From positions 1 to 64,000 of the forward strand of contig JAFDYX010000035.1 in assembly GCA_018267215.1 (NCBI GenBank): a stretch of 64,000 nucleotides of DNA, given 5' to 3'. How positions within the stretch are numbered: the first letter of the stretch is position 1; each line of letters begins with the position of its first letter. The notes beneath the pieces are model-generated. The model did not search any database and was not told where the DNA came from. It worked only from the letters and a program-made list of their open reading frames with translations. The stretch is from Bacteroidota bacterium (GTDB lineage: Bacteria; Bacteroidota; Bacteroidia; Cytophagales; Cyclobacteriaceae). The position numbers were made by a program, and so were the translations under genes. Of this stretch, positions 42,508-59,137 are shown piece by piece.

Positions 42508-43815
42508 ATGAATATCATTATAGCACATGCAGAAATAAAAGACATCCGTTTCCCTACCAGCCTTACTTTGGATGGCTCGGATGCCATGAATACCGACCCC
42601 GATTATTCGGCTGCCTATCTCATTCTTAAAACTAACCATCCCGGTTTAGAAGGCCATGGATTTACATTCACTATCGGAAGGGGCAATGAAATCTGTACGG
42701 TGGCCATCCAAGCTATCTTACCGTTGGTGTTGGGTAAATCGCTGGAAGAGATAACAAAAGACATGGCGGGTTTTTGGAGAGGTATAACCGGAGACAGTCA
42801 GTTGCGCTGGCTGGGGCCTGAAAAGGGCGTGATTCATTTGGCTACGGGCGCAGTAGTCAATGCCGTGTGGGATTTGTGGGCAAAGGCAGAAAAGAAACCA
42901 CTTTGGAAATTGGTGGCCGATATGTCGCCCCAGGAGTTGTTGGCCTGTGTTGATTTCTCTTACATCACAGATGCTATTTCACCGGCAGAAGCACTACAAA
43001 TGCTGGAGGCAAACGAACCGGGGAAAAAGGAACGGGTAGATTATCTGCTGGCCAACGGTTATCGGGGCTACACCACATCACCGGGATGGCTCGGTTACTC
43101 CGAAGAAAAAATCAGAAGGCTGAGCCGCGAAGCTGTGGCAGAAGGATGGCAGGCAGTGAAAATGAAAGTTGGAAGCAACTTGTATGAAGACAAACGAAGG
43201 GCAAAAATTATCCGCGATGAAATAGGAGAAGACACCCTGCTGATGATGGATGCCAATCAGAAGTGGGATGTAGGCGCAGCCATTACAAACATGAACCAAC
43301 TGAAGGAATTTAATCCGTATTGGATTGAAGAACCCACCAGCCCGGATGATGTGTTAGGTCATGCCCGCATTGCGAAAGAATTGAATCCTATCCGTGTGGC
43401 CACCGGAGAGCATTGCCAGAACCGGGTTGTGTTCAAACAACTGATGCAGGCCAAGGCCATCAGCGTTTGCCAAATAGATAGTTGCCGGGTAGGAGGGGTA
43501 AACGAAAACCTTGCCATCATGCTGATGGCTGCCAAGTTTGGCATTCCGGTTTGTCCTCATGCGGGCGGAGTAGGGCTTTGCGAGTTAGTACAACATCTTT
43601 CGATGATTGATTTTATTTGCATTAGCGGAAGCATCGAAGGTCGAATGATTGAATACGTAGATCATCTGCACGAGCATTTTGTTGACCCGGTAATTATCCG
43701 CGATGGCAAATATCTGGCTCCATCTTTGCCGGGGTTTAGTAGCCAGATGAAGAGTGAAAGCCTTTGCGATTATGAATTTCCTAACGGTGAAATCTGGAGA
43801 AACTTAAAAAAATAA
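42508..43815 (+). CDS. L-fuconate dehydratase
   Basis: A 435-residue enolase-superfamily enzyme of the mandelate racemase subgroup, converting L-fuconate to 2-keto-3-deoxy-L-fuconate. The catalytic base is in VKMKVG (Lys218, Lys220). Mg ligands are Asp248 (MMDANQKWD), Glu274 (IEEPTSPDD) and Glu301 (ATGEHCQN). His351 in CPHAGGVGLCE is the second base. It is the first gene of the plus-strand fucose operon. Confidence 0.94.
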   Translation: MNIIIAHAEIKDIRFPTSLTLDGSDAMNTDPDYSAAYLILKTNHPGLEGHGFTFTIGRGNEICTVAIQAILPLVLGKSLEEITKDMAGFWRGITGDSQLRWLGPEKGVIHLATGAVVNAVWDLWAKAEKKPLWKLVADMSPQELLACVDFSYITDAISPAEALQMLEANEPGKKERVDYLLANGYRGYTTSPGWLGYSEEKIRRLSREAVAEGWQAVKMKVGSNLYEDKRRAKIIRDEIGEDTLLMMDANQKWDVGAAITNMNQLKEFNPYWIEEPTSPDDVLGHARIAKELNPIRVATGEHCQNRVVFKQLMQAKAISVCQIDSCRVGGVNENLAIMLMAAKFGIPVCPHAGGVGLCELVQHLSMIDFICISGSIEGRMIEYVDHLHEHFVDPVIIRDGKYLAPSLPGFSSQMKSESLCDYEFPNGEIWRNLKK

Positions 43816-43826
43816 CAACTGATAAA

Positions 43827-44603
43827 ATGGAATCAAGTTTAAGCCTATCGGGAAAGAATGCTGTCATAACAGGAGGTGGCAGCGGCATTGGCCGGGCTAT
43901 TTCAAAATGCTTTGCCACGGCAGGCGCCCATGTGTTTATTTTCGATCTCGATCAGGTAAATGGTGAAAAGGTAGCCCAAGAAATTAGGTTGAAAAATGGA
44001 AAAGCGACATTCATGTTGTGCAACATCACATCTTCGGAAGAAGTAAGCCATACCATAGAAAAAGTAAAACCTACGATAGATATATTAGTAAACAATGCCG
44101 GGATTGCGCATGTCGGCAATGCTGTAACTACTTCCGAACATGATTTTGAAAAACTTTTTCAGGTGAATGTGAAGGGCACATTCCTTTGCTTACAATCGTG
44201 CCTGCCCCGTATGATTGAGCAAAACAAAGGTGTGATACTAAATTTAGCCTCCATTGCTGCCATGGTAGGCTTGCCTGACCGCTTTGCTTATTCAATGACA
44301 AAGGGTGCCATGCTGGCCATGACCTATTCGGTAGCAAGAGATTTTCTTAAACACAATATTCGTTGCAATTGCATTTCACCCGCCCGGGTGCATACACCGT
44401 TTGTGGATGGTTTCTTGTCCAAGAACTATCCGGGAAAAGAAAAAGAAATGTTCGAAAAACTTTCGAATACTCAGCCGATAGGCCGCATGGGTACAGCCGA
44501 AGAAATTGCCCAGTTGGCGCTGTACCTTTGTTCTGATCAGGCATCTTTCATTACAGGCACAAATTATCCTATTGACGGAGGCTTTGTCACATTGAATACA
44601 TAA
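43827..44603 (+). CDS. SDR family 2-keto-3-deoxy-L-fuconate dehydrogenase
   Basis: A 258-residue SDR with an intact catalytic set: cofactor loop TGGGSGIGRAI, NNAG, Ser142, Tyr155 and Lys159 in YSMTKGA. It oxidises 2-keto-3-deoxy-L-fuconate to the 2,4-diketo acid. It is 11 bp after the dehydratase gene and 4 bp before the hydrolase gene. Unlike the fucose dehydrogenase on the other strand, it keeps the lysine. Confidence 0.9.
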   Translation: MESSLSLSGKNAVITGGGSGIGRAISKCFATAGAHVFIFDLDQVNGEKVAQEIRLKNGKATFMLCNITSSEEVSHTIEKVKPTIDILVNNAGIAHVGNAVTTSEHDFEKLFQVNVKGTFLCLQSCLPRMIEQNKGVILNLASIAAMVGLPDRFAYSMTKGAMLAMTYSVARDFLKHNIRCNCISPARVHTPFVDGFLSKNYPGKEKEMFEKLSNTQPIGRMGTAEEIAQLALYLCSDQASFITGTNYPIDGGFVTLNT

Positions 44604-44607
44604 TATT

Positions 44608-45465
44608 ATGAAACTAATACGATTCGGCCAACCCGGAAATGAAAAACCCGGAGTCATTAACAAACATGGTAAGCGCATAGATGTAAGCACATTTGACGAG
44701 GACTACCATGAAAAATTTTTTGAAACAAATGGGATAGACCGATTGGCCAACTGGCTGATGCAGAATGAAAAAGATTGCCCGGTTGTGGATGATCAGGTGC
44801 GTCTTGGCCCAAGTATTGCGCGCCCCAGTAAAATTATTTGTATCGGATTAAACTATGCTAAGCACGCGAGAGAAGGCGGGATGGAAATCCCCAAGCAGCC
44901 GATTATTTTTTTTAAATCTACCACTGCGATAGTTGGCCCTCATGACGATTTAGTCATCCCTCATAAAAGCATAAAGACAGATTGGGAAGTAGAGTTGGCG
45001 CTGGTGATAGGAAAGAAAGCCACCTATGTTTCAGAAGAAAAAGCCATGGATTTTGTGGCAGGCTATATCCTTCACAATGATTACAGTGAGCGCGAATTTC
45101 AGTTGGAGCATGGAGGCCAATGGGTGAAGGGGAAAAGCGCTGATACGTTTGCGCCTCTAGGGCCATTTTTGGCAACCCGTGATGAAATTGCCGACCCGCA
45201 TCATTTGAGATTGTGGCTGAAACTGAATGGAAAAATGATGCAAGACAGCAACACGTCAGATATGATTTTTAAAATCCCTTTTCTGATCAGCTATGTTAGT
45301 CAGTATATGACCCTTTTGCCGGGAGATGTGATTACCACCGGAACTCCTGAAGGGGTGGGGCTAGGGTTAAAACCACCGGTTTATCTGAAGCCCGGTGATT
45401 TTGTTGAGTTGGGAATTGAGGGGCTGGGAAGTTCATCTCAGCATGTGAAGGCCTACCAACCCTGA
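44608..45465 (+). CDS. FAH-family 2,4-diketo-3-deoxy-L-fuconate hydrolase
   Basis: A 285-residue fumarylacetoacetate-hydrolase fold protein. It shows ICIGLNYAKHARE, then the metal-binding blocks DWEVELALVIG and HNDYSEREFQ, and TGTPEGVGLG. In this gene set it should split 2,4-diketo-3-deoxy-L-fuconate into pyruvate and L-lactate. It is the last gene of the plus-strand operon, and its end faces the D-aminoacylase-like gene. Confidence 0.9.
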   Translation: MKLIRFGQPGNEKPGVINKHGKRIDVSTFDEDYHEKFFETNGIDRLANWLMQNEKDCPVVDDQVRLGPSIARPSKIICIGLNYAKHAREGGMEIPKQPIIFFKSTTAIVGPHDDLVIPHKSIKTDWEVELALVIGKKATYVSEEKAMDFVAGYILHNDYSEREFQLEHGGQWVKGKSADTFAPLGPFLATRDEIADPHHLRLWLKLNGKMMQDSNTSDMIFKIPFLISYVSQYMTLLPGDVITTGTPEGVGLGLKPPVYLKPGDFVELGIEGLGSSSQHVKAYQP

Positions 45466-45474
45466 CGGTACATT

Positions 45475-47148
45475 CTATTTTTTCCACCCCGGCCCGCGCA
45501 CAAGCCTGCCGGGCTTTTCGCCTGTATGTTCTCCGTTTTTAATTACCTGAGTTCCATTTACCCAAACGTGCTGTACCCCTGTTGAATATTGATGGGGGTT
45601 TTCAAATGTAGCGTGATCTTGAATGGTTGCCGGGTCAAAAACAACCACATCGGCAAAATATCCTACAGACAATTGTCCACGTTTCTTAATCTTCAAATTT
45701 CCGCATGGAAGCGATGTAAGCTTGCGGATAGCTTCTTCCAACGGAATTACTTTTTCATCGCGCACATATTTGGCGAGCAGGCGTGCAAAATTTCCGTAGG
45801 CGCGCGGATGATCTTTATATTTTAAAAACATACCCTCGGCAGCGGGCGCCCCGGCATCCGACCCAAAGCTAACATACGGCAATTGAATTTGCCGTTTGAT
45901 GTTTTCTTCGCTCATCATAAAGTAAGCAGTCTCCACACGTGTGCTGTCATCAATCACCAATTGAATTACGGTTTCTTCGGGTGTAAGCTTGTATTCTTTC
46001 GAAACCTCTGCTAAAGTTTTTCCTACATACTTCTTCATATTTTCTTTTGCGAAGCTGAGGAACAAAACATTTTCCGGGCCGCCACACGTGCGCAACATGT
46101 TTTCCCATTTATCTGTTGGCGTGCGCATTTCTTCCAAGACTTTTTTCTTTATCGCAGGATTTTTAAGTCTTCTGATCCATTCATTGATTCCGCCTTCCTG
46201 CACCCATGGCGGCATGGAGGCGTCCAAGCCAGTGGCTCCGGCTGTGTAGGTGTACATATCGGCAGTAATTTTATATCCCTGCTTGTTGGCTTTGTCAATT
46301 TTGGCAATAACAGTGTCGAGTTTCCACCAATTATCTTTGCCGGCCATTTTCAGATGATATATTTCTGCCGGCAAGCCAGCCTCGCGCGCAATGCGTATGG
46401 TTTCATCCACAGCAGCAAAAATATTATTGCCTTCGCTTCGTATATGGCTGATGTAGATGCCGCCATACTGTGCAGCTACTTTGCTCAACTCAATTAATTC
46501 ATCGGTGCTAGCATAATTATCGGGTGCATAAATCAAGGCAGTAGTTATGCCCATGGCGCCTTCTTCCATAGCTTGCTTTACTAATGCTTTCATGTGCTCG
46601 AGCTCCTCCTTGTTGGGGGCGCGGTTGGCATAGCCCAGTTCATGGATGCGGATGGTGTTGGCACCTACGAATGATGCTACATTGGGCGAAAACTTTCGCT
46701 TCTCCAGACTTTGAAGATATTCGCCCAGCGTAGTCCAGTCAATATTGTATGCCCAATCAGGAACTTTCTTCATGTAGTCTATCGCCTCTTTTTTCATTTG
46801 ATCGCTGAGCGGCCCCATAGAGCTTTCGCCTAACACTTCGAGTGTGATGCCTTGACGAAGGTCGCTTGACAAGCGGCTATCAATCAGCAAAGATGTTTCT
46901 GCATGACTCATCATGTTAACAAAACCGGGAGAGACAGCTACGCCAGTAGCGTCAATTTCATTTTTACCGACAGCATTTTTTAAATCGCCAACAAATGCAA
47001 TGGTATCTGCATTAATACCTATATCGGCCATTACGCCCGGTTTGCCGGTGCCGTCATAAACTGTTCCGTGTCGGATGATGATGTCGTAAGATTGTTTTTT
47101 ACAAGCGATAACAGCGATGAATAAAAAAAGGTAAAGCAGATACTTCAT
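45475..47148 (-). CDS. Lipoprotein of the N-acyl-D-amino-acid deacylase family
   Basis: A 557-residue amidohydrolase. A lipoprotein signal ends in VIAC (Cys16), so it is membrane-anchored outside the cytoplasm. TVYDGTGKPG, ISHIRSEGN and YHLKMAGKDNWWK are family blocks. The first metal motif, normally HxH after PGFID, is replaced by PGFVNMMSHAET (Asn78, His82). This form occurs in a subgroup of the family, so metal content may differ. It would release D-amino acids from N-acyl forms, perhaps from peptidoglycan. It is convergent with the fucose hydrolase gene. Confidence 0.85.
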   Translation of the reverse strand: MKYLLYLFLFIAVIACKKQSYDIIIRHGTVYDGTGKPGVMADIGINADTIAFVGDLKNAVGKNEIDATGVAVSPGFVNMMSHAETSLLIDSRLSSDLRQGITLEVLGESSMGPLSDQMKKEAIDYMKKVPDWAYNIDWTTLGEYLQSLEKRKFSPNVASFVGANTIRIHELGYANRAPNKEELEHMKALVKQAMEEGAMGITTALIYAPDNYASTDELIELSKVAAQYGGIYISHIRSEGNNIFAAVDETIRIAREAGLPAEIYHLKMAGKDNWWKLDTVIAKIDKANKQGYKITADMYTYTAGATGLDASMPPWVQEGGINEWIRRLKNPAIKKKVLEEMRTPTDKWENMLRTCGGPENVLFLSFAKENMKKYVGKTLAEVSKEYKLTPEETVIQLVIDDSTRVETAYFMMSEENIKRQIQLPYVSFGSDAGAPAAEGMFLKYKDHPRAYGNFARLLAKYVRDEKVIPLEEAIRKLTSLPCGNLKIKKRGQLSVGYFADVVVFDPATIQDHATFENPHQYSTGVQHVWVNGTQVIKNGEHTGEKPGRLVRGPGWKK

Positions 47149-47429: not shown

Positions 47430-49070
47430 ATGAAAAGAAGAAACTTTATACAAATGGCCGGCATGGGGGTGGCAGGCTCATTATTCTCACTTCCGGTTAC
47501 AGGCAATCCTGTTCCTTTAGAATCATTATTGGAGTCGCCACTCGTGGCATCACAAAAAAAACAATTGGCCAATGTTGCTTTAAATACAGCCAAAAGTTTG
47601 GGCGCCACCTACACAGATGTGCGCATTGGCCGCTACCTAAACCAGTTTATTAGTACGCGCGAAAATAAAGTTCAGAACATCGTTAATACTGAATCGTACG
47701 GTGTAGGCATACGTGTAATTGTGAAAGGCGCCTGGGGGTTTGCCGCTACCAACGAAGTAACTGCTGACACCATCAAGAAAGCAACCGAAAAGGCTGTGGC
47801 TATAGCCAAAGCCAATTCTAAATTCCAAAAAGAGCCGGTCAACTTAGCTCCGGTGGTTGGCTATGGAGAGGTTACGTGGAACACGCCCATACAAAAAAAT
47901 GCTTTTGAAGTGCCCGTGTCTGAAAAAGTAGATTTGTTGTTACGAACTAATAGCGCTGCGCTCAAGAGCGGAGCAAGTTTTGCCAACTCAAATTTATTTC
48001 AGGTAAACGAACAAAAATATTTTGCTTCATCAGATGGGTCGTACATAGATCAGGATATTCACCGCATCTGGCCTACCTTCAGCGTGTCGGTAATTGACCG
48101 CGCCTCGGGTAAATTCAAATCGCGCGAAGCCATGAGCGCCCCGATGGGGATGGGCTATGAATACATGATGCCCAAAGCCGAAGACAAATTGGCGGGTCCA
48201 TCAGGCATGGTACTTTATAAAAATAGTTATGATATTGTAGAAGATGCGGCCATTGCTGCCAAGCAGGGAAAAGAAATGATTTCTGCTAAATCAGTAGAGC
48301 CGGGAAAATATGATTTAGTGCTGGAGCCTAACCACTTGGGGCTCACTATCCATGAGTCTATCGGCCATCCGTTGGAACTCGACCGCATTTTAGGTTACGA
48401 AGCAAACTATGCCGGCACCAGTTTCGTGTCTCTCGAAAAACTGAAGTCAGGAAGTTTTCAGTACGGAAGCAAACACGTAAACATCTTTGCCGACAAAACT
48501 CAGGTAGGCTCATTGGGCGCGGTGGGCTACGATGACGAAGGTGTGAAATGCAAACGATGGGACTTGATCAAAGATGGTGTACTCGTCAATCTGGAAGCTA
48601 TCCGCGATCAGGTTCATTTGCTCGGACAAAACGAATCGCACGGTTGCTGTTATGCCCAAAGTTGGAACGATGTGCAGTTTCAGCGTATGCCCAATGTGTC
48701 GCTTGCGCCCGGCAAAGAAACATACAGCAGTGCCCAGATGATTAAAGATGTAGAGAAAGGAATCTATATCGCAGGTCGCGGTTCCTACTCCATAGATCAG
48801 CAACGATACAACTTTCAGTTTGGCGGAACCGTATTTTATGAAATCAAAAACGGTCAGATAACAGGCTTATTGAATGATGTAGCCTATCAAGCCAACACAC
48901 AAGAATTTTGGAACAGTTGCGCCAAAGTATGCGATGAAAGCGAATATCGCATGTTCGGTTCATTCTTTGATGGCAAGGGGCAGCCTTCGCAGGTTAGCGC
49001 TGTTTCACACGGCAGTTCGCCCGCCCGGTTTAACGGAGTCAATGTAATTAACACAGGCAGAACCATATAA
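47430..49070 (+). CDS. tldD: Tat-exported TldD-family metalloprotease, paralogue 1
   Basis: A 546-residue TldD homologue. It opens with a twin-arginine signal (MKRRNFIQMAGMGVAGSLF). The zinc motif is HESIGH at 308-313, which fits the TldD HExxxH. A vicinal cysteine pair (Cys406-Cys407 in SHGCCYAQSW) takes the place of the E. coli residues before the RMTN block, which here reads RMPNV. It is the first of five tldD/tldE genes and 17 bp before paralogue 2. TldD/E of E. coli cleaves unfolded peptides and matures microcin B17 and the CcdA antidote in the cytoplasm. This one is predicted to act outside it. Confidence 0.9.
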   Translation: MKRRNFIQMAGMGVAGSLFSLPVTGNPVPLESLLESPLVASQKKQLANVALNTAKSLGATYTDVRIGRYLNQFISTRENKVQNIVNTESYGVGIRVIVKGAWGFAATNEVTADTIKKATEKAVAIAKANSKFQKEPVNLAPVVGYGEVTWNTPIQKNAFEVPVSEKVDLLLRTNSAALKSGASFANSNLFQVNEQKYFASSDGSYIDQDIHRIWPTFSVSVIDRASGKFKSREAMSAPMGMGYEYMMPKAEDKLAGPSGMVLYKNSYDIVEDAAIAAKQGKEMISAKSVEPGKYDLVLEPNHLGLTIHESIGHPLELDRILGYEANYAGTSFVSLEKLKSGSFQYGSKHVNIFADKTQVGSLGAVGYDDEGVKCKRWDLIKDGVLVNLEAIRDQVHLLGQNESHGCCYAQSWNDVQFQRMPNVSLAPGKETYSSAQMIKDVEKGIYIAGRGSYSIDQQRYNFQFGGTVFYEIKNGQITGLLNDVAYQANTQEFWNSCAKVCDESEYRMFGSFFDGKGQPSQVSAVSHGSSPARFNGVNVINTGRTI

Positions 49071-49087
49071 AACCATAATTAAAAAAA

Positions 49088-50728
49088 ATGAAGAGACGAG
49101 ATTTTATTCAACTGGCAGGCGCAGGGGCAGGCGCAATGATGATACCGTTTGCTTCTTTTGCCAACGTGGTGGACCCCTCGCGTTTTTTAGAACCTTTGTT
49201 AGATACAAAGCAAAAAAAACAATTGGCTGACGTGGCCTTAAACGCAGCTAAGTCAATGGGCGCCACCTATACGGATGTGCGGATAGGCCGATACCTCAAT
49301 CAGTTTGTTACTACCCGCGAGAAGAAAGCGCAAAACATTGTCAACACAGAATCATTTGGTGTTGGTATTCGTGTTATTGTAAACGGCACCTGGGGTTTTG
49401 CCGCCAGCAATAATGTAACGGCTGACGGTATTAAGAAAACAACGGAACGTGCTGTGGCCATTGCCAAAGCAAACTCCAAGTTCCAAAAAGAACCGGTGAA
49501 GTTGGCAGCCACACCTTCGTACGGAGAGGTGAGCTGGAAAACGCCCATCGTCAAAAACGGGTTTGAAGTACCTGTGAAAGACAAAGTGGACTTGTTGTTG
49601 AGCGCCAACGCCAAGGCAATGGAGAAAGGCGCCAACTTTGTAAACAGCATTATGTTTTTGGTTAATGAACAAAAATATTTTGCTTCATCCGAAGGCTCAT
49701 ACATAGATCAGGACATCCATCGTACATGGCCGAATTTTAATGTCAACGCAGTTGACCGCGCCACCGGCCAGTTTAAAAGCAGGCCTGCCTTCAGTGCCCC
49801 GGTAGGGATGGGCTATGAATATTTGGATGGAAAAGCTGAAGACAAAATTCAAGGGCCGGGTGGAATCATCCTTTATGGTAAATCCTATGATATCGTAGAA
49901 GATGCTGCCATGGCTGCCGAGCAGGTAAAACAAATGATTGCTGCCAAATCTGTAGAGCCCGGAAAATATGATCTGGTGTTGGAGCCCTCTCACTTATGGC
50001 TGACTATCCATGAGTCGGTAGGCCACCCCACCGAACTCGACCGTGTGCTTGGCTACGAAGCCAATTTTGCCGGTACCAGTTTTCTGACACTCGACAAATG
50101 GAAAGCCGGCAACTTTAATTTTGGAAGCAAGCATGTCAACATCGTGGCCGACAAAACACAAGTGGGCTCGCTGGGGGCCGTTGGTTATGATGACGAAGGC
50201 GTGAAGTGTAAAAAATGGGATTTGATAAAAGATGGAGTGCTGGTAAACTATCAGGCTATCCGCGATCAGGTAAACATTATCGGGCAGCGCGAATCGCATG
50301 GCTGTTGCTACTCGCAAAGTTGGAGTGACGTACAGTTTCAGCGCATGGCCAATGTTTCCTTGCAGCCGGGCAAAGAAAGTTTAACTCCCGACCAAATTAT
50401 TGCCGGTGTAGAGAAAGGAATATACATCGTAAAAGACGGCTCGTTTTCTATAGACCAGCAGCGGTACAACTTCCAGTTTGGCGGTGTGCTTTTCTTTGAA
50501 ATCAAAAACGGAAAAATTGCGGGCATGCTCAAAGACGTAGCCTATCAAGCCAACACGCAGGAATTTTGGAACTCGTGTGCGCAAGTTTGCGATGAGCGCG
50601 ATTACCGGTTGAATGGCGCATTTAATGACGGCAAGGGTCAGCCTTCGCAGTCTAACGCAGTTTCACATGGATCGGCAACGGCTCGCTTCAATGGTGTAAA
50701 CGTAATCAATACAGGAAGGACAATATAA
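49088..50728 (+). CDS. tldD: Tat-exported TldD-family metalloprotease, paralogue 2
   Basis: A 546-residue protein, very similar along its length to the upstream paralogue and equal in size. The twin-arginine signal is MKRRDFIQLAGAGAGAMM. The zinc motif is HESVGHPTELDR, and the vicinal Cys pair is SHGCCYSQSW. It differs from paralogue 1 in that motif (Val, Thr in place of Ile, Leu) and agrees with paralogue 3, so it pairs with the following tldE as a D-E unit. It is 29 bp before tldE1. Confidence 0.9.
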   Translation: MKRRDFIQLAGAGAGAMMIPFASFANVVDPSRFLEPLLDTKQKKQLADVALNAAKSMGATYTDVRIGRYLNQFVTTREKKAQNIVNTESFGVGIRVIVNGTWGFAASNNVTADGIKKTTERAVAIAKANSKFQKEPVKLAATPSYGEVSWKTPIVKNGFEVPVKDKVDLLLSANAKAMEKGANFVNSIMFLVNEQKYFASSEGSYIDQDIHRTWPNFNVNAVDRATGQFKSRPAFSAPVGMGYEYLDGKAEDKIQGPGGIILYGKSYDIVEDAAMAAEQVKQMIAAKSVEPGKYDLVLEPSHLWLTIHESVGHPTELDRVLGYEANFAGTSFLTLDKWKAGNFNFGSKHVNIVADKTQVGSLGAVGYDDEGVKCKKWDLIKDGVLVNYQAIRDQVNIIGQRESHGCCYSQSWSDVQFQRMANVSLQPGKESLTPDQIIAGVEKGIYIVKDGSFSIDQQRYNFQFGGVLFFEIKNGKIAGMLKDVAYQANTQEFWNSCAQVCDERDYRLNGAFNDGKGQPSQSNAVSHGSATARFNGVNVINTGRTI

Positions 50729-50757
50729 AAACGATCACAAACCAGTAACAGAAAATT

Positions 50758-52095
50758 ATGGCAATACTTTCAAAAGACGAAGCACAGCAAATCCTTAAGA
50801 AGGTAATCGGCTTCTCTAAAGCAGACGGCATTGAAGCAACCTTGAATGGCAACGACAGCGGCAACATCCGTTATGCCCGCAACAGCGTATCCACATCAGG
50901 CGAAGAGAGCAACGTAAGCTTAGGTGTCAACTCCTACTTCGGAAAAAAATCGGGCACGGCCACCATCAATGAATTTGACGATGCCTCGCTCGAAAAAGTA
51001 GTGAGGCGCTCGGAAGAGTTGGCACAATTGGCTCCCGAAAACCCCGAATTCATGGAGCCGTTGTCGCAACAAACCTATATGGAAACAAAAACTTTTTTTG
51101 ATTCTACCGCGAAGATTACTCCCGAGTACAGGGCGCAGGCTGCCGCCAACAGCATCAATCCGGCAGCCGCTAAAGACATTACCGCAGCGGGCTATCTGAC
51201 AAACAACAGAGGGTTCAGTTCGGTGATGAACAGCAAAGGTTTGTTTGCTTACAGTCAGGCCACAAGCGTTGACTTCACCGTTACCATGCGCACCAACGAT
51301 GGCACCGGCTCAGGCTGGGTAACCCGCAGTTTTAATGACGTAAGCAAACTCAACACTGCCGAAGCCTCAAAGGTGGCTATTGACAAGGCGCTGCAGTCGC
51401 GCAATGCCAAAGCAGTTGAGCCCGGAAAATACACCGTTATCCTGGAGCCGGCAGCAGCTGGCGATTTAATCGGCCTGATGTTTTTTGGCATGAATGCCCG
51501 CCAGGCAGATGAGGGGCGCAGCTTCATGTCTAAAAAAGGAGGTGGCACAAAACTCGGTGAGAAAATAGTGGACGAGCGTGTGAATATCTATACTGATCCG
51601 CAAAATGAAGATGTGCCAGCAGCCGGGTGGTCTAACAACGGACTGGCCCGTAAAAAAATGGACATCATAAAAAATGGCGTAGTCACCAATTTGTTCTACG
51701 ACCGCTACTGGGCATCACAAAAAAATGTAGAGCCCGTGCCGTTTCCCGGCAACCGGATTATGCAAGGAGGAAATGCTTCGCTGGAAGACATGATCAAAGA
51801 CACCAAGAAAGGAATACTCGTTACTAGGTTCTGGTACATCCGCCCGGTAGATCCGCAGACTTTGCTCTACACCGGACTTACCCGCGATGGAACTTTCTTC
51901 ATTGAAAATGGAAAGATCAAGCACCCGGTAAAAAACTTCCGCTTTAACGAAAGTCCGATCATTATGCTGAACAATTTGGAAACATTGGGCAAGCAAGTAA
52001 GGGTTGGTAATGGTGAAGGCTTTGGCGCTCCCTCATTGATTCCCTACATGAAGATCAGAGACTTTACGTTTACTAGTTTATCGGATGCAGTGTAA
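50758..52095 (+). CDS. tldE: TldE/PmbA-family partner subunit, paralogue 1
   Basis: A 445-residue TldE/PmbA homologue with no HExxxH, as expected for the non-catalytic subunit of the heterodimer. N-terminal blocks include IRYARNSVSTSGEESN and TINEFDDASLEKVVRRSEELA. The C-terminal block has FRFNESPIIMLNNLE. There is no twin-arginine, Sec or lipoprotein signal, although its partners carry Tat signals. It is followed by a strong terminator. Co-export bound to TldD is the simplest explanation. Confidence 0.9.
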   Translation: MAILSKDEAQQILKKVIGFSKADGIEATLNGNDSGNIRYARNSVSTSGEESNVSLGVNSYFGKKSGTATINEFDDASLEKVVRRSEELAQLAPENPEFMEPLSQQTYMETKTFFDSTAKITPEYRAQAAANSINPAAAKDITAAGYLTNNRGFSSVMNSKGLFAYSQATSVDFTVTMRTNDGTGSGWVTRSFNDVSKLNTAEASKVAIDKALQSRNAKAVEPGKYTVILEPAAAGDLIGLMFFGMNARQADEGRSFMSKKGGGTKLGEKIVDERVNIYTDPQNEDVPAAGWSNNGLARKKMDIIKNGVVTNLFYDRYWASQKNVEPVPFPGNRIMQGGNASLEDMIKDTKKGILVTRFWYIRPVDPQTLLYTGLTRDGTFFIENGKIKHPVKNFRFNESPIIMLNNLETLGKQVRVGNGEGFGAPSLIPYMKIRDFTFTSLSDAV

Positions 52096-52122
52096 AACGA
52101 TCGACTAACGTAATACATTATC

Positions 52123-52157
52123 AAAATCCCCGGAAAGTAAAACCGGGGATTTTCTTA
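52123..52157 (+). terminator. Intrinsic terminator after the first tldD-tldD-tldE unit
   Basis: Perfect 11-bp stem AAAATCCCCGG (52123-52133) and CCGGGGATTTT (52143-52153) with a 9-nt loop, followed by a T-rich tail. It ends the three-gene unit and separates it from the second D-E unit. Confidence 0.85.
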
Positions 52158-52223
52158 TTTGATTTGTACCATGTATTTTCATGGATAAAAAATTACTTTC
52201 CGTGTTAACATTTATCGGAATTG

Positions 52224-52231
52224 TACGTTTG
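52224..52231 (+). promoter_or_regulatory. -7 promoter box of the second tldD-tldE unit
   Basis: TACGTTTG is a full match to TAnnTTTG, 35 bp before the tldD3 start and downstream of the terminator. This supports an independent promoter. No clear -33 box is seen. Confidence 0.45.
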
Positions 52232-52266
52232 AATAAAAATATTTTACCACACTTTAACCCGCTACA

Positions 52267-53907
52267 ATGAAAAGAAGAGACTTTATCCATCTGGCAGGCA
52301 TGGGCGCAACAGGGGCTACGCTATTGTCGCAGTTTCCTGCTTTTGGCAAAGCCATTCCGCCTGAACGCGCCCTTGAAACGGTGGACGTTGCCCTGAAAAA
52401 ACAATTGGCCGATGTGGCCTTAAATGCTGCGCGCAGCAAGGGCGCTACCTACACAGATGTGCGATTGGGCAGATACCTCAATCAGTTTGTAGTAACCCGT
52501 GAAGACAAAGTAGAAAACATTGTCAACACGGAATCGTATGGCATGGGCATTCGTGTTATTGCCAACGGGGGGTGGGGTTTTGCTGCCACCGACAAATTAG
52601 ACAAAGACAGTATTGCCAAAACAGCCGAGATGGCCGTAGCCATTGCCAAAGAAAATTCCAGGCTGCTTTCTGAGCCTGTCAAGTTAGCCCCGCAAAAAGG
52701 GTTGGGGGAAGTAAGTTGGAAAGCACCTATCGAAAAAAATGCTTTTGAAGTTCCCATAAAAGAAAAAGCTGATTTACTGCTGAATGTCAACGATGCCGCC
52801 ATGAAGGCCGGTGCCAACTACATTACCTCTTTGCTCTTCTTGATCAACGAACAAAAATATTTTGCTTCTTCGGATGGCTCATACATTGATCAGGATGTGC
52901 ATCGCATTTGGCCTGCCTTCTTCATCACTAAAATTGATGCAGCTACCGGCAAGTTTGAAACCCGTAACACATTAAGTGCCCCGATGGGCATGGGCTACGA
53001 ATACCTCGACTGGCGGCCACAAGATAAAATCCATAGCGTAACAACTCTCTACAAGGGGCGTTACGATATGCTGGAAGATGCGAAAGCAGGAGGAATGCAG
53101 GCTGGAGAAAAAATAAAAGCTAAATCGGTGGAGCCCGGCAAATACGATTTGATATTAGATCCGTCTCACTTGTGGCTCACCATCCACGAGTCGGTAGGGC
53201 ATCCGACAGAACTCGACCGCGTGTTGGGTTATGAAGCCAACTTTGCCGGCACCAGTTTCCTGACACTCGATAAATGGCAATCTAAAAAATTCAATTTCGG
53301 AAGTAAGCTCGTCAATATTGTAGCCGACAAACAACAAAAAGGATCGCTGGGTGCTGTGGGCTATGATGATGAGGGCGTGCCTTGCGGCAAATGGGATTTA
53401 ATTAAAGACGGAGTACTTGTTAATTATCAGGTGATCCGCGACCAGGCGCACATTTTAGGTTTGAACGCCTCGCAGGGATGTTGCTATGCCGACAACTGGA
53501 GCAGTGTACAGTTTCAGCGCATGCCCAATGTTTCGCTGCAACCGGGCAAACAAAAAAGAAGCATTGACGACATGATTAAAAATGTAGAGAAAGGAATCTA
53601 CATCATTGGCGATGGATCTTTTTCGATTGATCAACAGCGCTACAACTTCCAGTTCGGAGGGCAGTTGTTCTACGAAATCAAGAACGGCAAAATCGTAGGC
53701 ATGCTCAAAGATGTAGCCTATCAGGCCAACACACAAGATTTTTGGAATTCGTGCGCTGACATAGCCGATGAAAGCGATTATCGTTTAGGGGGCGCCTTTG
53801 GCGATGGCAAAGGACAACCGGCCCAGAGCAACTCTGTATCGCATGGCTCGGCAACAGCCCGTTTCAATGGAATTAATGTAATCAACACATCACGAAATAT
53901 CGGATAA
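52267..53907 (+). CDS. tldD: Tat-exported TldD-family metalloprotease, paralogue 3
   Basis: A 546-residue TldD homologue of the second unit. The signal is MKRRDFIHLAGMGATGATLL with twin arginines. The zinc motif is HESVGHPTELDR. The vicinal cysteines are in SQGCCYADNW, and RMPNVSLQPGK follows. The same length as the other two copies indicates duplication without internal rearrangement. It is 4 bp before tldE2, closer than the corresponding gap in the first unit. Confidence 0.9.
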   Translation: MKRRDFIHLAGMGATGATLLSQFPAFGKAIPPERALETVDVALKKQLADVALNAARSKGATYTDVRLGRYLNQFVVTREDKVENIVNTESYGMGIRVIANGGWGFAATDKLDKDSIAKTAEMAVAIAKENSRLLSEPVKLAPQKGLGEVSWKAPIEKNAFEVPIKEKADLLLNVNDAAMKAGANYITSLLFLINEQKYFASSDGSYIDQDVHRIWPAFFITKIDAATGKFETRNTLSAPMGMGYEYLDWRPQDKIHSVTTLYKGRYDMLEDAKAGGMQAGEKIKAKSVEPGKYDLILDPSHLWLTIHESVGHPTELDRVLGYEANFAGTSFLTLDKWQSKKFNFGSKLVNIVADKQQKGSLGAVGYDDEGVPCGKWDLIKDGVLVNYQVIRDQAHILGLNASQGCCYADNWSSVQFQRMPNVSLQPGKQKRSIDDMIKNVEKGIYIIGDGSFSIDQQRYNFQFGGQLFYEIKNGKIVGMLKDVAYQANTQDFWNSCADIADESDYRLGGAFGDGKGQPAQSNSVSHGSATARFNGINVINTSRNIG

Positions 53908-53911
53908 CACT

Positions 53912-55246
53912 ATGGCAATTTTAACCAAAGACGAAGCTCACGCTTTACTGAAGAAAGTATTGAGCTATTCTAAAGCTGATGAATGTGAAGTAAACCTGTC
54001 GGGTACTGATAGTGCCAACATCCGGTATGCCCGCAATGCTGTTTCTACCAGTGGCAAAGTAACCCAAAGCCAGTTGGTGGTGGCCTCAGCTTACGGAAAA
54101 AAACAGGGCGTGGCTACCATCAATGAGTTTGATGATGCCTCGCTCGAAAAAGTAGTGCGCAGGTCGGAAGAGCTCGCGCAACTGGCTCCCGAAAACCCGG
54201 AGTTTGTTTCTTTTCTGGGGCCACAAACGTATGCTGAATCGGTTACCTATGTGGAGAGCACAGCTTCCATTACACCTAAACTGCGGTCTGATTTAGTAGC
54301 TCAGAGTTTAGAGGTAGCCAAGAATGCAAAAGCAGTGGCGGCAGGATTCTTGGAAGACAACACAGGCTTCAGCGCCTTGATGAACACCAAGGGGCTTTTT
54401 GCCTACAACACTTCTACCAACACTAATTTTTCTGTTACGGTAAGAACGGAAGATGGCAAAGGATCTGGCTATGCTACACGCGGCTACAACGACATCACTA
54501 AATTAGATACAAAAAAAGCAACACAGATTGCAACCGAAAAGGCAGTAAAATCGGCAAACGCCAAAGCGATTGAGCCGGGCAAATACACAGTTATATTAGA
54601 GCCGGCAGCCGTTGCTGTTTTGTTAGAAAATCTTTTCTTCCGTTTAGATGCCCGCCAGGCAGACGAAGGCAGAAGTTTTTTAAGCAAGGCAGGCGGAGGT
54701 ACCCGCCTGGGAGAAAAATTGATGGATGAGCGGGTAAACATTTATTCTGATCCGCTTAACCCTGAGTTGCCCACCAACACATGGAATGGCGATGGGCGCC
54801 CTCAGGAAAAAACAACGTGGGTAGAAAAAGGCGTAATTAAAAATCTTACTTACTCCCGATACTGGGCACAGAAAAAAGGAGTGAAAGCTGTACCCGGCCC
54901 GGATGCCGCCATCATGGAAGGAGGCACTAAGTCTATTGAAGAACTGATAGCCGGAACCAAGAAAGGAGTGTTGGTAACAAGGCTTTGGTATATCCGCGAT
55001 GTAGATCCGCAGTCGGTGTTGCTCACCGGGCTTACCCGCGATGGCACTTTCTATATCGAAAACGGAAAAATTCAATACCCAATCAAAAACTTCCGCTTCA
55101 ATGAAAGCCCGATTATCATGCTCAACAATTTGGAAGAACTCGGTAAAGTAGAGCGCACGGTTAGTGTAGAGTCGAACAACAACTACTTATTACCTCCGCT
55201 TAAAGTAAGAGATTTTACGTTCTCCAGTTTATCGGATGCGGTGTAG
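53912..55246 (+). CDS. tldE: TldE/PmbA-family partner subunit, paralogue 2
   Basis: A 444-residue homologue of the tldE at 50758, with identical blocks such as ATINEFDDASLEKVVRRSEE and a near-identical C-terminus (VRDFTFSSLSDAV). There is no export signal. It is 4 bp after tldD3, so the two subunits are likely made together. A strong terminator ends the unit. Confidence 0.9.
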   Translation: MAILTKDEAHALLKKVLSYSKADECEVNLSGTDSANIRYARNAVSTSGKVTQSQLVVASAYGKKQGVATINEFDDASLEKVVRRSEELAQLAPENPEFVSFLGPQTYAESVTYVESTASITPKLRSDLVAQSLEVAKNAKAVAAGFLEDNTGFSALMNTKGLFAYNTSTNTNFSVTVRTEDGKGSGYATRGYNDITKLDTKKATQIATEKAVKSANAKAIEPGKYTVILEPAAVAVLLENLFFRLDARQADEGRSFLSKAGGGTRLGEKLMDERVNIYSDPLNPELPTNTWNGDGRPQEKTTWVEKGVIKNLTYSRYWAQKKGVKAVPGPDAAIMEGGTKSIEELIAGTKKGVLVTRLWYIRDVDPQSVLLTGLTRDGTFYIENGKIQYPIKNFRFNESPIIMLNNLEELGKVERTVSVESNNNYLLPPLKVRDFTFSSLSDAV

Positions 55247-55267: not shown

Positions 55268-55302
55268 GAAAGAGGCTGTGCTTGCAGCCTCTTTCATTTT
55301 TT
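55268..55302 (+). terminator. Intrinsic terminator after the second tldD-tldE unit
   Basis: Perfect 11-bp stem GAAAGAGGCTG (55268-55278) and CAGCCTCTTTC (55285-55295) with a 6-nt loop, then ATTTTTT. It closes the TldD/E part before the DUF4159 gene. Confidence 0.85.
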
Positions 55303-55367
55303 AAATCCGTTAATATAATTTTTTGCTGCTTTTTCATTTTAGTGGCTGAACTTGCATAGTGGATAGC

Positions 55368-55991
55368 ATGCTTTTGGGAAACAAATTCTTTTTTACGCGA
55401 CTTCAATACGAATCAGGCGACTGGGATGTAGATCAGCGTATGCCATCCAATGTGTTGAACTCTTTAATTGAATACACCACGTTACCTGTTGACACCAACG
55501 AGAATATTGTGCCGCTGAGCAGCGATGAAATTTTCCGATGTCCGTTTTGTTATTTAAGCGGGCACAAGTTGGTGGAGTTTACAGCACGCGAGCGCGAAAA
55601 CTTTGTGAAGTATGTGCAGAATGGCGGGTTTGTATTTGTAGATGATTGTAATCACGATATAGACGGGCTGTTTGCCAAATCTTTTGAATCTCAAATGGAA
55701 ATACTTTTTGGGAAGGAGGCACTAAAAAAAATACCCAACAGCCACCCGCTTTACTCTTCCTTCTTTAAGTTTGATGGGCCGCCCACTACCGCACAAGAAC
55801 TGAACGGATGGGGAGACGACATCGTTCATAATTACCTGAAAGCGATTGAAGTGAAAAATAAAATAGGCGTGCTGTATAGCAACAAAGATTATGGATGCGA
55901 GTGGGACTATGATTTTAGAAACAAACGGTTTTACAGGATAGACAACACACGCTTCAGCGTAAACATTGTGATGTATGCACTCACCTGCTAA
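55368..55991 (+). CDS. DUF4159 family protein without export signal
   Basis: A 207-residue protein. I take the ATG at 55368; a GTG at 55359 would add three residues, and a stop lies 12 bp before that. The DUF4159 core is visible in FTRLQYESGDWDVDQR, FCYLSGH (ThuA-like glutamine-amidotransferase-type fold) and GGFVFVDDCNHDI. Many family members are exported, but this one has no signal peptide. It leads the MoxR-DUF58 gene group and sits 42 bp before moxR. Confidence 0.85.
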   Translation: MLLGNKFFFTRLQYESGDWDVDQRMPSNVLNSLIEYTTLPVDTNENIVPLSSDEIFRCPFCYLSGHKLVEFTARERENFVKYVQNGGFVFVDDCNHDIDGLFAKSFESQMEILFGKEALKKIPNSHPLYSSFFKFDGPPTTAQELNGWGDDIVHNYLKAIEVKNKIGVLYSNKDYGCEWDYDFRNKRFYRIDNTRFSVNIVMYALTC

Positions 55992-56033: not shown

Positions 56034-57038
56034 ATGAACGTAAGCGCAACAACAGAAAAATCGGTGCAGGATTTAATAGAAAGGCTCCGGGCACTTAAAG
56101 CAGAGATCAGTAAAGTGATTGTCGGGCAAGACGATGTAATAGATCAGATGCTCATCTCTTTTTTAGCCGGTGGCCATGCGCTGCTCGAAGGTGTGCCCGG
56201 GCTTGCCAAGACGTTAATGATCCGTACTTTGTCTGAAGCGATTGATTTAAAGTTCAGGAGAATTCAATTTACGCCCGACCTGATGCCCTCTGATATTATC
56301 GGTACGGAAGTATTGGAAGAAGACCACACTACAGGCAAGCGCATTTTTAAATTTATACACGGGCCGATTTTTGCCAACATCATTTTAGCTGATGAGATTA
56401 ACCGCACCTCCCCCAAAACGCAGTCGGCTTTGCTGGAGGCCATGCAGGAGTTTGAAGTAACCTATGCCGGCATCTCATACAAACTGGAAAAGCCATTCTT
56501 TATTCTGGCCACACAAAACCCCATTGAGCAGTCGGGCACATTCCCGTTGCCGGAAGCACAATTAGATCGCTTTCTGTTTTACATCAAAGTAAATTACCCT
56601 ACTGCAGAAGAAGAAATTTCTGTTTTGGAAAACACAACTGGCAAAAAGCGTTCTGAAATCAAAAAAGTAATTGACGGCAGCCAACTGTTGGCCGCACAAT
56701 CTTTAGTACGCGAAGTACACATTAACCGCGACCTGATTGCGTGGGTAAGCCGTTTGGTGCGCGCCACCCGGCCGGGCGATAGCGAAAGCAGTTTTGTGAA
56801 TGAGTGGGTTCGGTGGGGGGCAGGCCCACGTGCCGGGCAGGCCATGATTTTAACAGCCAAAGCCAGCGCCTTGCTGCGCGGAAACTTCTCTGTGTTAGAA
56901 GAAGATATAGAAAAGGTAGCATACCCTGTGTTGCGCCATCGTATTCTGATGAACTTCAAAGCCGAAGCAGAGGGTGTTACGGCAAACGAAGTAACCCAAC
57001 ACCTGCTGGAAAAAATAAGAATCAAAAAAAATATCTAA
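56034..57038 (+). CDS. MoxR-family AAA+ ATPase
   Basis: A 334-residue AAA+ protein. Walker A is GVPGLAKT at 53-60, Walker B is ILADEINRT with Asp120 and Glu121, and sensor 1 is in ATQNPIEQSGTFPLPEAQLDRF. The lid domain follows. MoxR proteins act as chaperones that help mature complexes or metal cofactors, commonly with a VWA or DUF58 partner. The DUF58 gene starts 3 bp downstream. Confidence 0.95.
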   Translation: MNVSATTEKSVQDLIERLRALKAEISKVIVGQDDVIDQMLISFLAGGHALLEGVPGLAKTLMIRTLSEAIDLKFRRIQFTPDLMPSDIIGTEVLEEDHTTGKRIFKFIHGPIFANIILADEINRTSPKTQSALLEAMQEFEVTYAGISYKLEKPFFILATQNPIEQSGTFPLPEAQLDRFLFYIKVNYPTAEEEISVLENTTGKKRSEIKKVIDGSQLLAAQSLVREVHINRDLIAWVSRLVRATRPGDSESSFVNEWVRWGAGPRAGQAMILTAKASALLRGNFSVLEEDIEKVAYPVLRHRILMNFKAEAEGVTANEVTQHLLEKIRIKKNI

Positions 57039-57041
57039 CCG

Positions 57042-57935
57042 GTGAATCCGCACATCAGGGAGTTGCTGAAACCTGAAATACTCAATACCGTGAACGGACT
57101 TGAGTTGGTAGCGCGTATTATCACGGAAGGATTTATGAGTGGCGACAACAAAAGTCGCTCAATAGGAGTGGGGCAAGAGTTCAGCCAATACAGAAGCTAT
57201 CAGCCTGGCGATGACCTGCGGCAACTGGACTGGAAAATGTTTGGACGTACGGAGCGCTATTACATTAAGCAATCGGAAATAGAGACCAATGTTACCGTAA
57301 AGTTTATTGTAGATACGAGCCTCTCTATGTCGTATCAGGAAGAAGGCATGAGCAAATTGCAGTATGCTAAAATTACGATAGCAGCATTAGCTTATCTGGC
57401 CCGAAAACAAGGCGATGCCTTTGGCCTATTTGCACTCAACAATAAGAAACTAAAAATTGTTTTGCCGCGCTTCGAACAGCAGCAGTTTATACGTTTCTTA
57501 ACAGAACTGATCGGCTTAAAAAGCGAAGGTCTGTGGCCGGATGCAGGCTTAGAGCAAATCTATGACCACCGTGGTAAAGAGATGATAATCTTTTTTACAG
57601 ATTTATACGACCAACAAGATGATATCTTACAGTTTATAGCGCGGTTAAAAACTTCAAGAAATGAAGTAATTGTTTTTCATCTACTCGGAAGGAACGAAGC
57701 GGAATTTAATTTTAATGGTTCATTTACTTTTGAAGATATCGAAACCGGTGAGCGTACAAAAGTGAATACGCTTTTGCAAAAAGAGGAGTATCGCCACCGT
57801 ATGGAACAGTGGCTAAGCCACTCGCGCAGCCGGATGCTTGAAAAACAAATTGACTACCACACAGTATATCTGGATCAGCCGGTGGAGGCCATGCTGAGAA
57901 ATTTCTTGACAATACGAAAACGGATGTTGAGATGA
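57042..57935 (+). CDS. DUF58 protein (VWA-like partner of MoxR)
   Basis: A 297-residue protein with a GTG start. The DUF58 signature is in the first half: GQEFSQYRSYQPGDDLRQLDW and RTERYYIKQSEIETN. The VWA-like MIDAS pattern is DTSLSMSY near residue 90. There are no membrane segments. It is 3 bp after moxR and overlaps the next gene by 4 bp (ATGA). It should form the usual MoxR partner complex. Confidence 0.92.
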   Translation: MNPHIRELLKPEILNTVNGLELVARIITEGFMSGDNKSRSIGVGQEFSQYRSYQPGDDLRQLDWKMFGRTERYYIKQSEIETNVTVKFIVDTSLSMSYQEEGMSKLQYAKITIAALAYLARKQGDAFGLFALNNKKLKIVLPRFEQQQFIRFLTELIGLKSEGLWPDAGLEQIYDHRGKEMIIFFTDLYDQQDDILQFIARLKTSRNEVIVFHLLGRNEAEFNFNGSFTFEDIETGERTKVNTLLQKEEYRHRMEQWLSHSRSRMLEKQIDYHTVYLDQPVEAMLRNFLTIRKRMLR

Positions 57936-59137
57936 CGTTTGTTAATCCCATCTTCTTGTGGTCCATGTTGGGTATATCAATTCCTTTGGCAATTCATTTT
58001 TTAAGCCGGAAGGATGGTGTGATCATTCGATTGGGAAGTTTACGCCACGTAAGAGAAACCAGCACACAACATTTTAAAGGAATAAAACTTAATGAGATAC
58101 TGCTATTGATACTGCGTTGCTTATTGATTATTATTTTGTCGTTGCTTTTAGCGGGACTTTCCATGAACCGTACAAGCAGCTTGAAGTGGGTACTGGTAGA
58201 AAAAGGGATAGAAAAAAATAAACAAGTTAAATCGTGGATTGACAGTCTTGAAAAGCAAGGCTACGAAGAACATTGGTTTACCGAAGACTTCCCAACCATT
58301 GATGAAGAGGCTACTTCTTCGGTCAGTTATTCAACATTAGTTAGTGAGTTAGATAAGAAAGGTGTGGGTGATGCTATTTTATTCTATTATCAAAAAGCAG
58401 AAAATTTTAAAGGGAAGAGAATCGCTTTGCCTTCCACTTTTCGTGCGATGTCCGTTGAACCGGGTGATAAAAAATTTCTTCTTCGCGCCATTCCGTGGCA
58501 CGACAGTGTTTATCTGCGTATAGGAAATTCGTCTGCGAAGGGTACAACCTACGAAGATCAGCTAACTCGGTTGGCTCCTGATACAGTCAGTGTATCGCCA
58601 CCACATCAAATTAAAATAGTTGTTCACTTCGATCAAGTACATCAATCCGATAAAAAAATTCTGATAGCATCTCTTCGTGCCGCAGAAGAACTGACTAAAA
58701 GCACATTTATTATTCTTGAAAAAGATGCTGCACATATTGATACTGATTCTGCTGACTGGGGTTTTTGGTTAGGTCAGCAACAGGTCAATAAAAATGTAAT
58801 CAATACTGTGGTGTTGCAGCCTGCTCCCTCCACACATTTAGTTGAAAGAACTGAACGGAACAACTGGCAGATAACCGAGCGGCTCAACGAAGACGTTGCC
58901 ATCCATCGTAACCTCACGCTGTCATTGGCATCGTTGCTCACATTCAATGATTCTCTGATGAACATCGCATCTGCCCACGATCACCGTATGCTGCCCGACT
59001 CCATGGCGTGGGCTTCTACACCAACAAATGAGAAGAAGGCAGAACTGTCGCAGCAATCGTTGGCTTCCTATTTAATAATAGCCTTCATTTTTGTATTGAC
59101 AGCCGAAAGATTATTGGCATGGAAACGAGGACAATGA
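57932..59137 (+). CDS. BatA-like membrane protein
   Basis: A 401-residue protein with the BatA N-terminal domain (FVNPIFLWSMLGISIPLAIHFLS) and two further membrane segments: about 56-75 (LLLILRCLLIIILSLLLAGL) and near the C-terminus (LASYLIIAFIFVLTAERLL). The middle is a soluble, presumably periplasmic domain without a recognised VWA MIDAS. Overlaps of 4 bp on each side couple it to DUF58 and to the DUF4175 gene. Confidence 0.85.
   Translation: MTFVNPIFLWSMLGISIPLAIHFLSRKDGVIIRLGSLRHVRETSTQHFKGIKLNEILLLILRCLLIIILSLLLAGLSMNRTSSLKWVLVEKGIEKNKQVKSWIDSLEKQGYEEHWFTEDFPTIDEEATSSVSYSTLVSELDKKGVGDAILFYYQKAENFKGKRIALPSTFRAMSVEPGDKKFLLRAIPWHDSVYLRIGNSSAKGTTYEDQLTRLAPDTVSVSPPHQIKIVVHFDQVHQSDKKILIASLRAAEELTKSTFIILEKDAAHIDTDSADWGFWLGQQQVNKNVINTVVLQPAPSTHLVERTERNNWQITERLNEDVAIHRNLTLSLASLLTFNDSLMNIASAHDHRMLPDSMAWASTPTNEKKAELSQQSLASYLIIAFIFVLTAERLLAWKRGQ

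Follow-up and report, generated by a model that had tools for sequence, protein, structure and literature searches.

The closest described relative of the genes considered here is the TldD/TldE pair of Escherichia coli (TldE is also called PmbA; MEROPS M103; PDB 5NJ5). Approximately 60% of bacterial genomes encode homologues of the two proteins, whose everyday function has been called elusive (PMC5810440). As described in the passages of this paper that deal with the E. coli enzyme, proteolysis requires both TldD and TldE, the metal is held by TldD alone, and instability of the TldD homodimer prevents its purification. The 64,000-nucleotide stretch of DNA analysed here (the window; positions 1 to 64,000 of contig JAFDYX010000035.1 from a Bacteroidota bacterium, assembly GCA_018267215.1) carries a locus of five genes of this family, three encoding TldD (D1, D2 and D3) and two encoding TldE (E1 and E2). 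All three TldDs begin with a predicted twin-arginine translocation (Tat) signal, which the TldEs lack. The explanation favoured here, at a probability of roughly 0.55, is a Tat-exported TldD/TldE metallopeptidase in which TldE would cross as a hitchhiker. The features of the locus are as follows.

47430-49070, + strand: D1, TldD copy 1, 546 residues, beginning MKRRNFIQMAG, with HESIGH at residues 308-313 and DGKGQ at 514-518
49088-50728, + strand: D2, TldD copy 2, 546 residues, beginning MKRRDFIQLAG, with HESVGH; begins 17 nucleotides past D1
50758-52095, + strand: E1, TldE copy 1, 445 residues, no signal and no HExxxH; begins 29 nucleotides past the D2 stop
52123-52153, + strand: terminator-like hairpin in the gap between E1 and D3, with an 11 base pair (bp) stem, a 9-nucleotide loop and a T-rich tail
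52267-53907, + strand: D3, TldD copy 3, 546 residues, beginning MKRRDFIHLAG, with HESVGH and DGKGQ
53912-55246, + strand: E2, TldE copy 2, 444 residues, no signal and no HExxxH; begins 4 nucleotides past the D3 stop
55268-55295, + strand: terminator-like hairpin 3' of E2, 12 bp followed by a T run

The order D-D-E, terminator, D-E, terminator given by a sequence-only reading of this DNA was recovered as five open reading frames (ORFs) and two terminator-like hairpins. A 51-nucleotide stretch at the hairpin in the E1/D3 gap folds at -16.6 kcal/mol; this hairpin is omitted from the list produced by the terminator scan because its 9-nucleotide loop exceeds the loop limit of the scan. The scan identified 14 terminator-like sites compared to 10.7 ± 3.5 in shuffled sequences, and the number of sites is therefore no evidence. 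All five proteins score above the curated cut-offs of the three Pfam PmbA/TldD domains (PF01523, PF19290 and PF19289), the first and second domains of E1 barely so, and the five genes are the five PF01523 matches of the 3.38-Mb assembly. D2 shares 73% identity with D1 and D3 shares 66%, and E2 is 61% identical to E1.

As in E. coli, each protein is composed of three PmbA/TldD domains and the HExxxH motif is featured in D only. The AlphaFold model of E1 (predicted local distance difference test, pLDDT, 89.6) has solved TldE/PmbA chains as its best structural matches, and the model of D2, built on a 35-sequence alignment (pLDDT 71.3), best matches E. coli TldD chains with 19–20% identity, so that D and E each resemble the corresponding solved chain. 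Scores against the NCBIfam equivalogs stay far below the cut-offs, at 66–79 bits for the D proteins (TldD, PRK10735, cut-off 513) and at 35.5 and 55.8 bits for the E proteins (PmbA, PRK11040, cut-off 438). Unlike the E. coli pair, the D proteins of the window exhibit a Tat-type N-terminus, the D and E genes are adjacent and multiplied, and DGKG is read where E. coli TldD has the CGK of Cys454, with a different residue predicted to take the place of this Cys.

Databases are rich in such proteins under the name TldD/PmbA family protein. D2 has a 95% identical relative of this name from a Bacteroidetes bacterium among the matches listed, which are the best 120 of at least 8000. The closest loci belong to Bacteroidetes metagenome assemblies (at most 90% identity), together with Flammeovirgaceae, Cyclobacteriaceae, Cytophagales and Ohtaekwangia records. 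Eighty related loci were compared; with the window added, the counts of neighbouring gene families refer to 81 loci. The sequence set of the window's type comprises 154 TldDs and 126 TldEs from these 80 loci, the window and fetched stretches of other Bacteroidota genomes. The same split between TldD and TldE is observed across the 80 loci and also elsewhere in the phylum, which makes the locus a branch of a known family and not the undescribed system that had been suggested for the window. No literature on an exported TldD/TldE or on the DUF4159 neighbourhood described below was found in the open literature, subscription papers lying outside the search.

D1, D2 and D3 all begin with MKRR[ND]FI and continue with roughly 20 residues that are mildly hydrophobic and carry no charge, in agreement with the earlier description of three 546-residue TldDs that open with MKRR and a hydrophobic stretch. 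Tat-type signals were called with a home-made rule that stands in for SignalP/TatP and combines an N-terminal RRxF motif with a run of at least 13 uncharged residues; all three window TldDs satisfy it. RRxF is present near the N-terminus of 148 of the 154 TldDs. The six remaining sequences comprise two incomplete frames (L019_D1 and L081_D1) and four RK variants (both copies of L132, L135_D1 and L136_D1). The full rule is satisfied by 147/154 TldDs, with L128_D3 failing on run length, and by 6 of 856 other ORFs of at least 150 residues from the related loci and the window, which served as the control. The N-terminus of E. coli TldD exhibits no such motif or extension. The genome encodes one TatC and one TatA-type protein. 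The window TldDs therefore feature the RRxF motif, the weakly hydrophobic run and the accompanying Tat genes of a Tat substrate, and they are predicted to be exported out of the cytoplasm. In Bacteroidetes bacterium OLB12 (L019, 10043-13171), neither of the first two TldD frames is complete, possibly due to assembly errors.

E1 and E2 both begin with MAIL[ST]KDEA and lack a comparable uncharged, hydrophobic stretch. The absence of a signal from TldE, also read earlier from the sequence, extends to all 126 TldEs of the window's type, none of which satisfies the full rule, and no HExxxH was identified in the listed TldEs of this type. The distance from TldD to TldE has a median of 29 nucleotides over 129 adjacent pairs, is at most 150 nucleotides in 123 of these, and is 29 and 4 nucleotides in the window, which therefore leaves no space for a hidden TldE signal. 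The Tat pathway transports proteins in the folded state, and known hitchhiker partners cross by it while lacking any signal themselves. The [NiFe] hydrogenases are such hitchhiker complexes, with a Tat signal on one subunit, a partner without one and adjacent genes. An export signal confined to the catalytic subunit, combined with tight gene adjacency, is the pattern expected of a hitchhiker. TldE has neither a signal nor space for one, as a hitchhiker partner does, and by analogy may cross together with TldD, although unlike the hydrogenases no redox cofactor is known in TldD/TldE.

In the proposed mechanism, TldD would fold, acquire its metal and bind TldE within the cytoplasm, and the twin-arginine signal of TldD would then direct the folded complex through Tat with TldE carried along. 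Outside, the complex would trim unfolded peptides by a narrow-channel mechanism as in E. coli TldD/TldE. The metal would be held by the two His residues of HExxxH (308–313) and probably by Asp514 replacing Cys454. At least two D-E pairs may work in parallel, one being D3-E2 and the other E1 with D2, D1 or both.

The HExxxH motif and the equivalents of the tether residues Glu270 and Asp272 are retained in all 129 aligned TldDs. The third metal ligand of E. coli TldD, Cys454, sits in a C-G-K-x-G-Q motif, where the window's type reads D-G-K-G-Q. DGKG is present in 151 of 152 readable TldDs, two further frames stopping before the motif, and the exact DGKGQ in 150/154, with DGKGE in L133 and CGKGE in L134; L154 and L157 likewise read DGKGE. 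The Cys of L134 lies at the exact position of Asp514 in the other TldDs, and Asp514 is equated with Cys454 because of the common D/C-G-K motif and this Cys. The register was accordingly chosen by the C/D-G-K motif over automatic alignment, which disagrees: MAFFT, in the first alignment and in three modes, pairs Cys454 with Lys516 and Lys456 with Gln518. The D2 AlphaFold model, with a pLDDT below 50 at the metal site, is too uncertain there to bear on the choice. No Cys is found either at the aligned column (Lys516) or at the motif-matched one (Asp514), with L134 as the sole exception. By comparison of the motifs, Asp514 probably stands in for Cys454 as the third metal ligand. A replacement of this Cys by Asp in some TldDs, such as that of Gemmatimonas, was proposed from sequence comparison in 2017 and related to a more thermolysin-like site (PMC5810440), and the ligand change is thus not a new observation. 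The Gemmatimonas passage of that paper is silent on signals, TldE and neighbouring genes; the Asp proposal is what it has in common with the window. What the present comparison adds to it is the breadth of the Asp motif among Bacteroidota TldDs bearing Tat-type N-termini.

The earlier proposal of a duplication with more than one D-E pair is borne out by trees built from 153 TldDs and 126 TldEs, for which L133 and L134 were chosen as the root. The D3 clade (39 sequences, support 0.98) and the E2 clade (34 sequences, support 0.99) match, and both unite the window's relatives with Runella, Emticicia and Dyadobacter records, so that D3-E2 is read from the trees as an old paralogous pair. The D2 clade (20 sequences, support 1.0) has members only from the window's relatives and branches just outside D1 and the flavobacterial TldDs (supports 0.95 and 0.68), a position that leaves the idea of D2 as a young copy unsupported. 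D1 groups weakly (0.68) with single-copy flavobacterial TldDs. In the 17 loci that have the complete set of five genes, tree distances correlate at 0.84 for D3-E2 and at 0.69 for D2-E1, the best values for D3 and D2; such correlations share species history and are suggestive at most. Two observations run counter to this pairing. The distances of D1 in these 17 loci correlate at 0.53 with E1 and at 0.64 with E2, and in L069–L085 and similar Runella-type loci the trees disagree, with E1 nearer the E2 clade (0.88) and D1 nearer D1 and D2 (0.68). A contiguous D-D-E-D-E arrangement is found in 14 of the 80 related loci, and a single D-E arrangement in species such as Maribacter or Aquimarina. Other multiplications are present in L128 (D-D-E-D-E), L130 and L078 (three D-E pairs each) and L132 (D-D-E). 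The three D copies of L130 branch with L075_D1 (0.70) and its three E copies are united in a single clade (1.0); the trees weakly suggest that some of these four multiplications arose separately.

Two other groups of TldD or TldD-like proteins were compared with the window's type. The Cys-type Bacteroidota TldDs (CGKxGQ, n = 12) resemble it in that 10 of them (L141–L143 and L145–L151; six under a stricter rule, none in L140 and L144) carry an RR-type N-terminus, each of the 10 with a signal-less TldE beside it, and all 11 D-E pairs of the group lie within 57 nucleotides. They differ in reading CGKxGQ and HEA[VI]GH, in having one pair per fetched stretch, and in the absence of a window-like DUF4159, MoxR or DUF58 match from these stretches. 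The combination of an RR-type TldD and a signal-less TldE in this group indicates that the Asp replacement is not needed for the export signal. The second group consists of TldD-like proteins with an N-terminus typical of the general secretory (Sec) pathway (L119, L121–L127, L137 and L158), which share the third TldD domain with HExxxH. Unlike the window D proteins, they have this Sec-like start, read HEI[FL]GH and are accompanied by no TldE match in the fetched stretch. Their ligand motif contains Cys in eight of the nine C-termini examined (not in L124; L137 is outside the nine). A redox rule, with Asp accompanying export and Cys accompanying the cytoplasm, was rejected given the RR-type N-termini of 10/12 Cys-type TldDs and the Cys of 8/9 Sec-type C-termini. 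Members of the Sec-type group are mostly about 560–600 residues in length, with L124 at 1086 residues, and L119 originates from a genome of the same genus (G146), which holds a second PF19289 match.

Several of these results weigh against an export of TldD and TldE together. The 10 Sec-type loci have no TldE match, and a Sulfolobus TldD homodimer has been reported as active (Hu et al. 2012, cited in PMC5810440), from which it follows that TldD could be exported without its partner. In that case, TldD would act as a homodimer or alone, and TldE would stay inside, for example as a pre-export chaperone or in another role. The lack of a Tat-type signal in all 126 TldEs fits this arrangement equally, and the portion of PMC5810440 on ultracentrifugation describes homodimers of both E. 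coli TldD and E. coli TldE. The need for both proteins in E. coli and the instability of its TldD homodimer argue the other way, as do the close spacing of TldE to TldD in 123/129 pairs and the matching D3 and E2 clades. Because of the active Sulfolobus enzyme, co-export was lowered and export of TldD alone was raised, the latter to the rank of a serious but rather doubtful account. The signal itself can also be questioned. A search of 392 Bacteroidota genomes for TatC was positive in 391, so that the presence or co-occurrence of TatC tests nothing. RK replaces RR in 4/154 TldDs, and the TldDs as a whole lack a uniform AxA cleavage site, so the signal may stay as an anchor. With a Tat call that rests on a home-made rule, the last two points would suit an N-terminus that is no working Tat signal, leaving the proteins cytoplasmic or held at the inner membrane face. 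This is considered very unlikely in view of the 148/154 TldDs with RRxF, two of whose six exceptions are incomplete frames, the 6/856 control ORFs that satisfy the full rule, and an E. coli TldD without the extension.

Another alternative concerns the chemistry, with the exported pair acting mainly as an amidase or N-deacetylase instead of a peptidase. N-deacetylases are known in the family, according to a paper title among the references of PMC10885120 (Vobruba et al. 2022), and the changed ligand motif could accompany changed chemistry. HExxxH and its neighbours are retained, and the recurrent neighbouring genes encode DUF4159, MoxR, DUF58 and BatA proteins and two families without a Pfam match, none of them biosynthetic, which makes this function improbable. 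The Tat-exported metallopeptidase with TldE as hitchhiker is kept as the preferred explanation.

The region of interest had been closed at 55246, the end of E2, which is too early. The following genes are found downstream.

55359-55991, + strand: DUF4159 protein, 210 residues, Pfam PF13709; family in 66/81 loci
56034-57038, + strand: MoxR-type AAA+ ATPase, 334 residues, Pfam AAA_3; family in 65/81 loci
57042-57935, + strand: DUF58 protein, 297 residues, Pfam PF01882; family in 62/81 loci
57932-59137, + strand: BatA-like protein, 401 residues, Pfam PF07584; other BatA-like families at this place in relatives
59119-61356, + strand: M745, 745 residues, no Pfam match at E 0.01; family in 43/81 loci
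61349-63094, + strand: M581, 581 residues, no Pfam match at E 0.01; family in 39/81 loci

The conserved neighbourhood thus extends to 63094; the counts of M745 and M581 are to be read with many of the 81 loci stopping short of these genes. In 63 relatives the DUF4159 gene comes directly 3' of TldE in the same orientation, with a median gap of 99 nucleotides. A single operon from D1 to 63094 is not claimed, given the hairpin after E2 and a crude terminator-like match at this place in 26 of the 63 relatives. Among 40 hand-chosen regions from evenly drawn genomes, with flanks of a few kb, window-like neighbours are present in 8/15 window-type loci (M745 and M581 only in L131 and L136) and in none of the 15 Cys-type or unsorted loci or the 10 Sec-type loci.

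No signal peptide was found by reading in the DUF4159 protein of the window. A second DUF4159 protein of the same genome (L162, contig C22, 6776-7429) bears a Sec-like stretch at its start, and the 15 kb retrieved at this locus lack window-like genes for MoxR, DUF58 and BatA. DUF4159 of any kind is present in 293/392 Bacteroidota genomes. A hand count was made over genomes from the window's class or from closer relatives, with the TldD type taken from frame lengths where sequences were not fetched and six PF19289 genomes of other type excluded. Of the 24 genomes with a window-type TldD, 18 have two DUF4159 matches and six have one weaker match (E 3.9e-52 to 8.6e-57), and each of the 52 genomes that are positive for DUF4159 and lack PF19289 has a single match. 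In genomes outside the class, up to four matches occur where PF19289 is absent (e.g. G167 and G258), and copy number there is therefore uninformative.

Pairs of MoxR and VWA proteins are thought to mature other metalloenzymes. By analogy, the MoxR-DUF58-BatA set might be a maturation machine of cytoplasm and membrane that loads metal into TldD, assembles TldE with it and hands the complex to Tat, an idea that is speculative and unlikely as it stands. If the idea were true, this would be the first peptidase heterodimer known to us that a dedicated AAA+ system puts together inside the cell before the intact complex is exported.

Directly upstream of D1 on the opposite strand, a gene at 45475-47148 encodes an amidohydrolase (Amidohydro_3) with a lipoprotein-like N-terminus by reading. 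The region at 42508-45465 encodes an enolase-superfamily protein, a short-chain dehydrogenase and then a protein that resembles fumarylacetoacetate hydrolase, the last identified by reading only; the three are perhaps a sugar-acid catabolic set.

In many Bacteroidota, an export signal on TldD, multiplied genes and an adjacent MoxR AAA+ module occur together, which provides a testable handle on this family. The questions that become accessible are where the enzyme acts, whether TldE travels through Tat with TldD, and whether the MoxR and DUF58 proteins have a role in its maturation.

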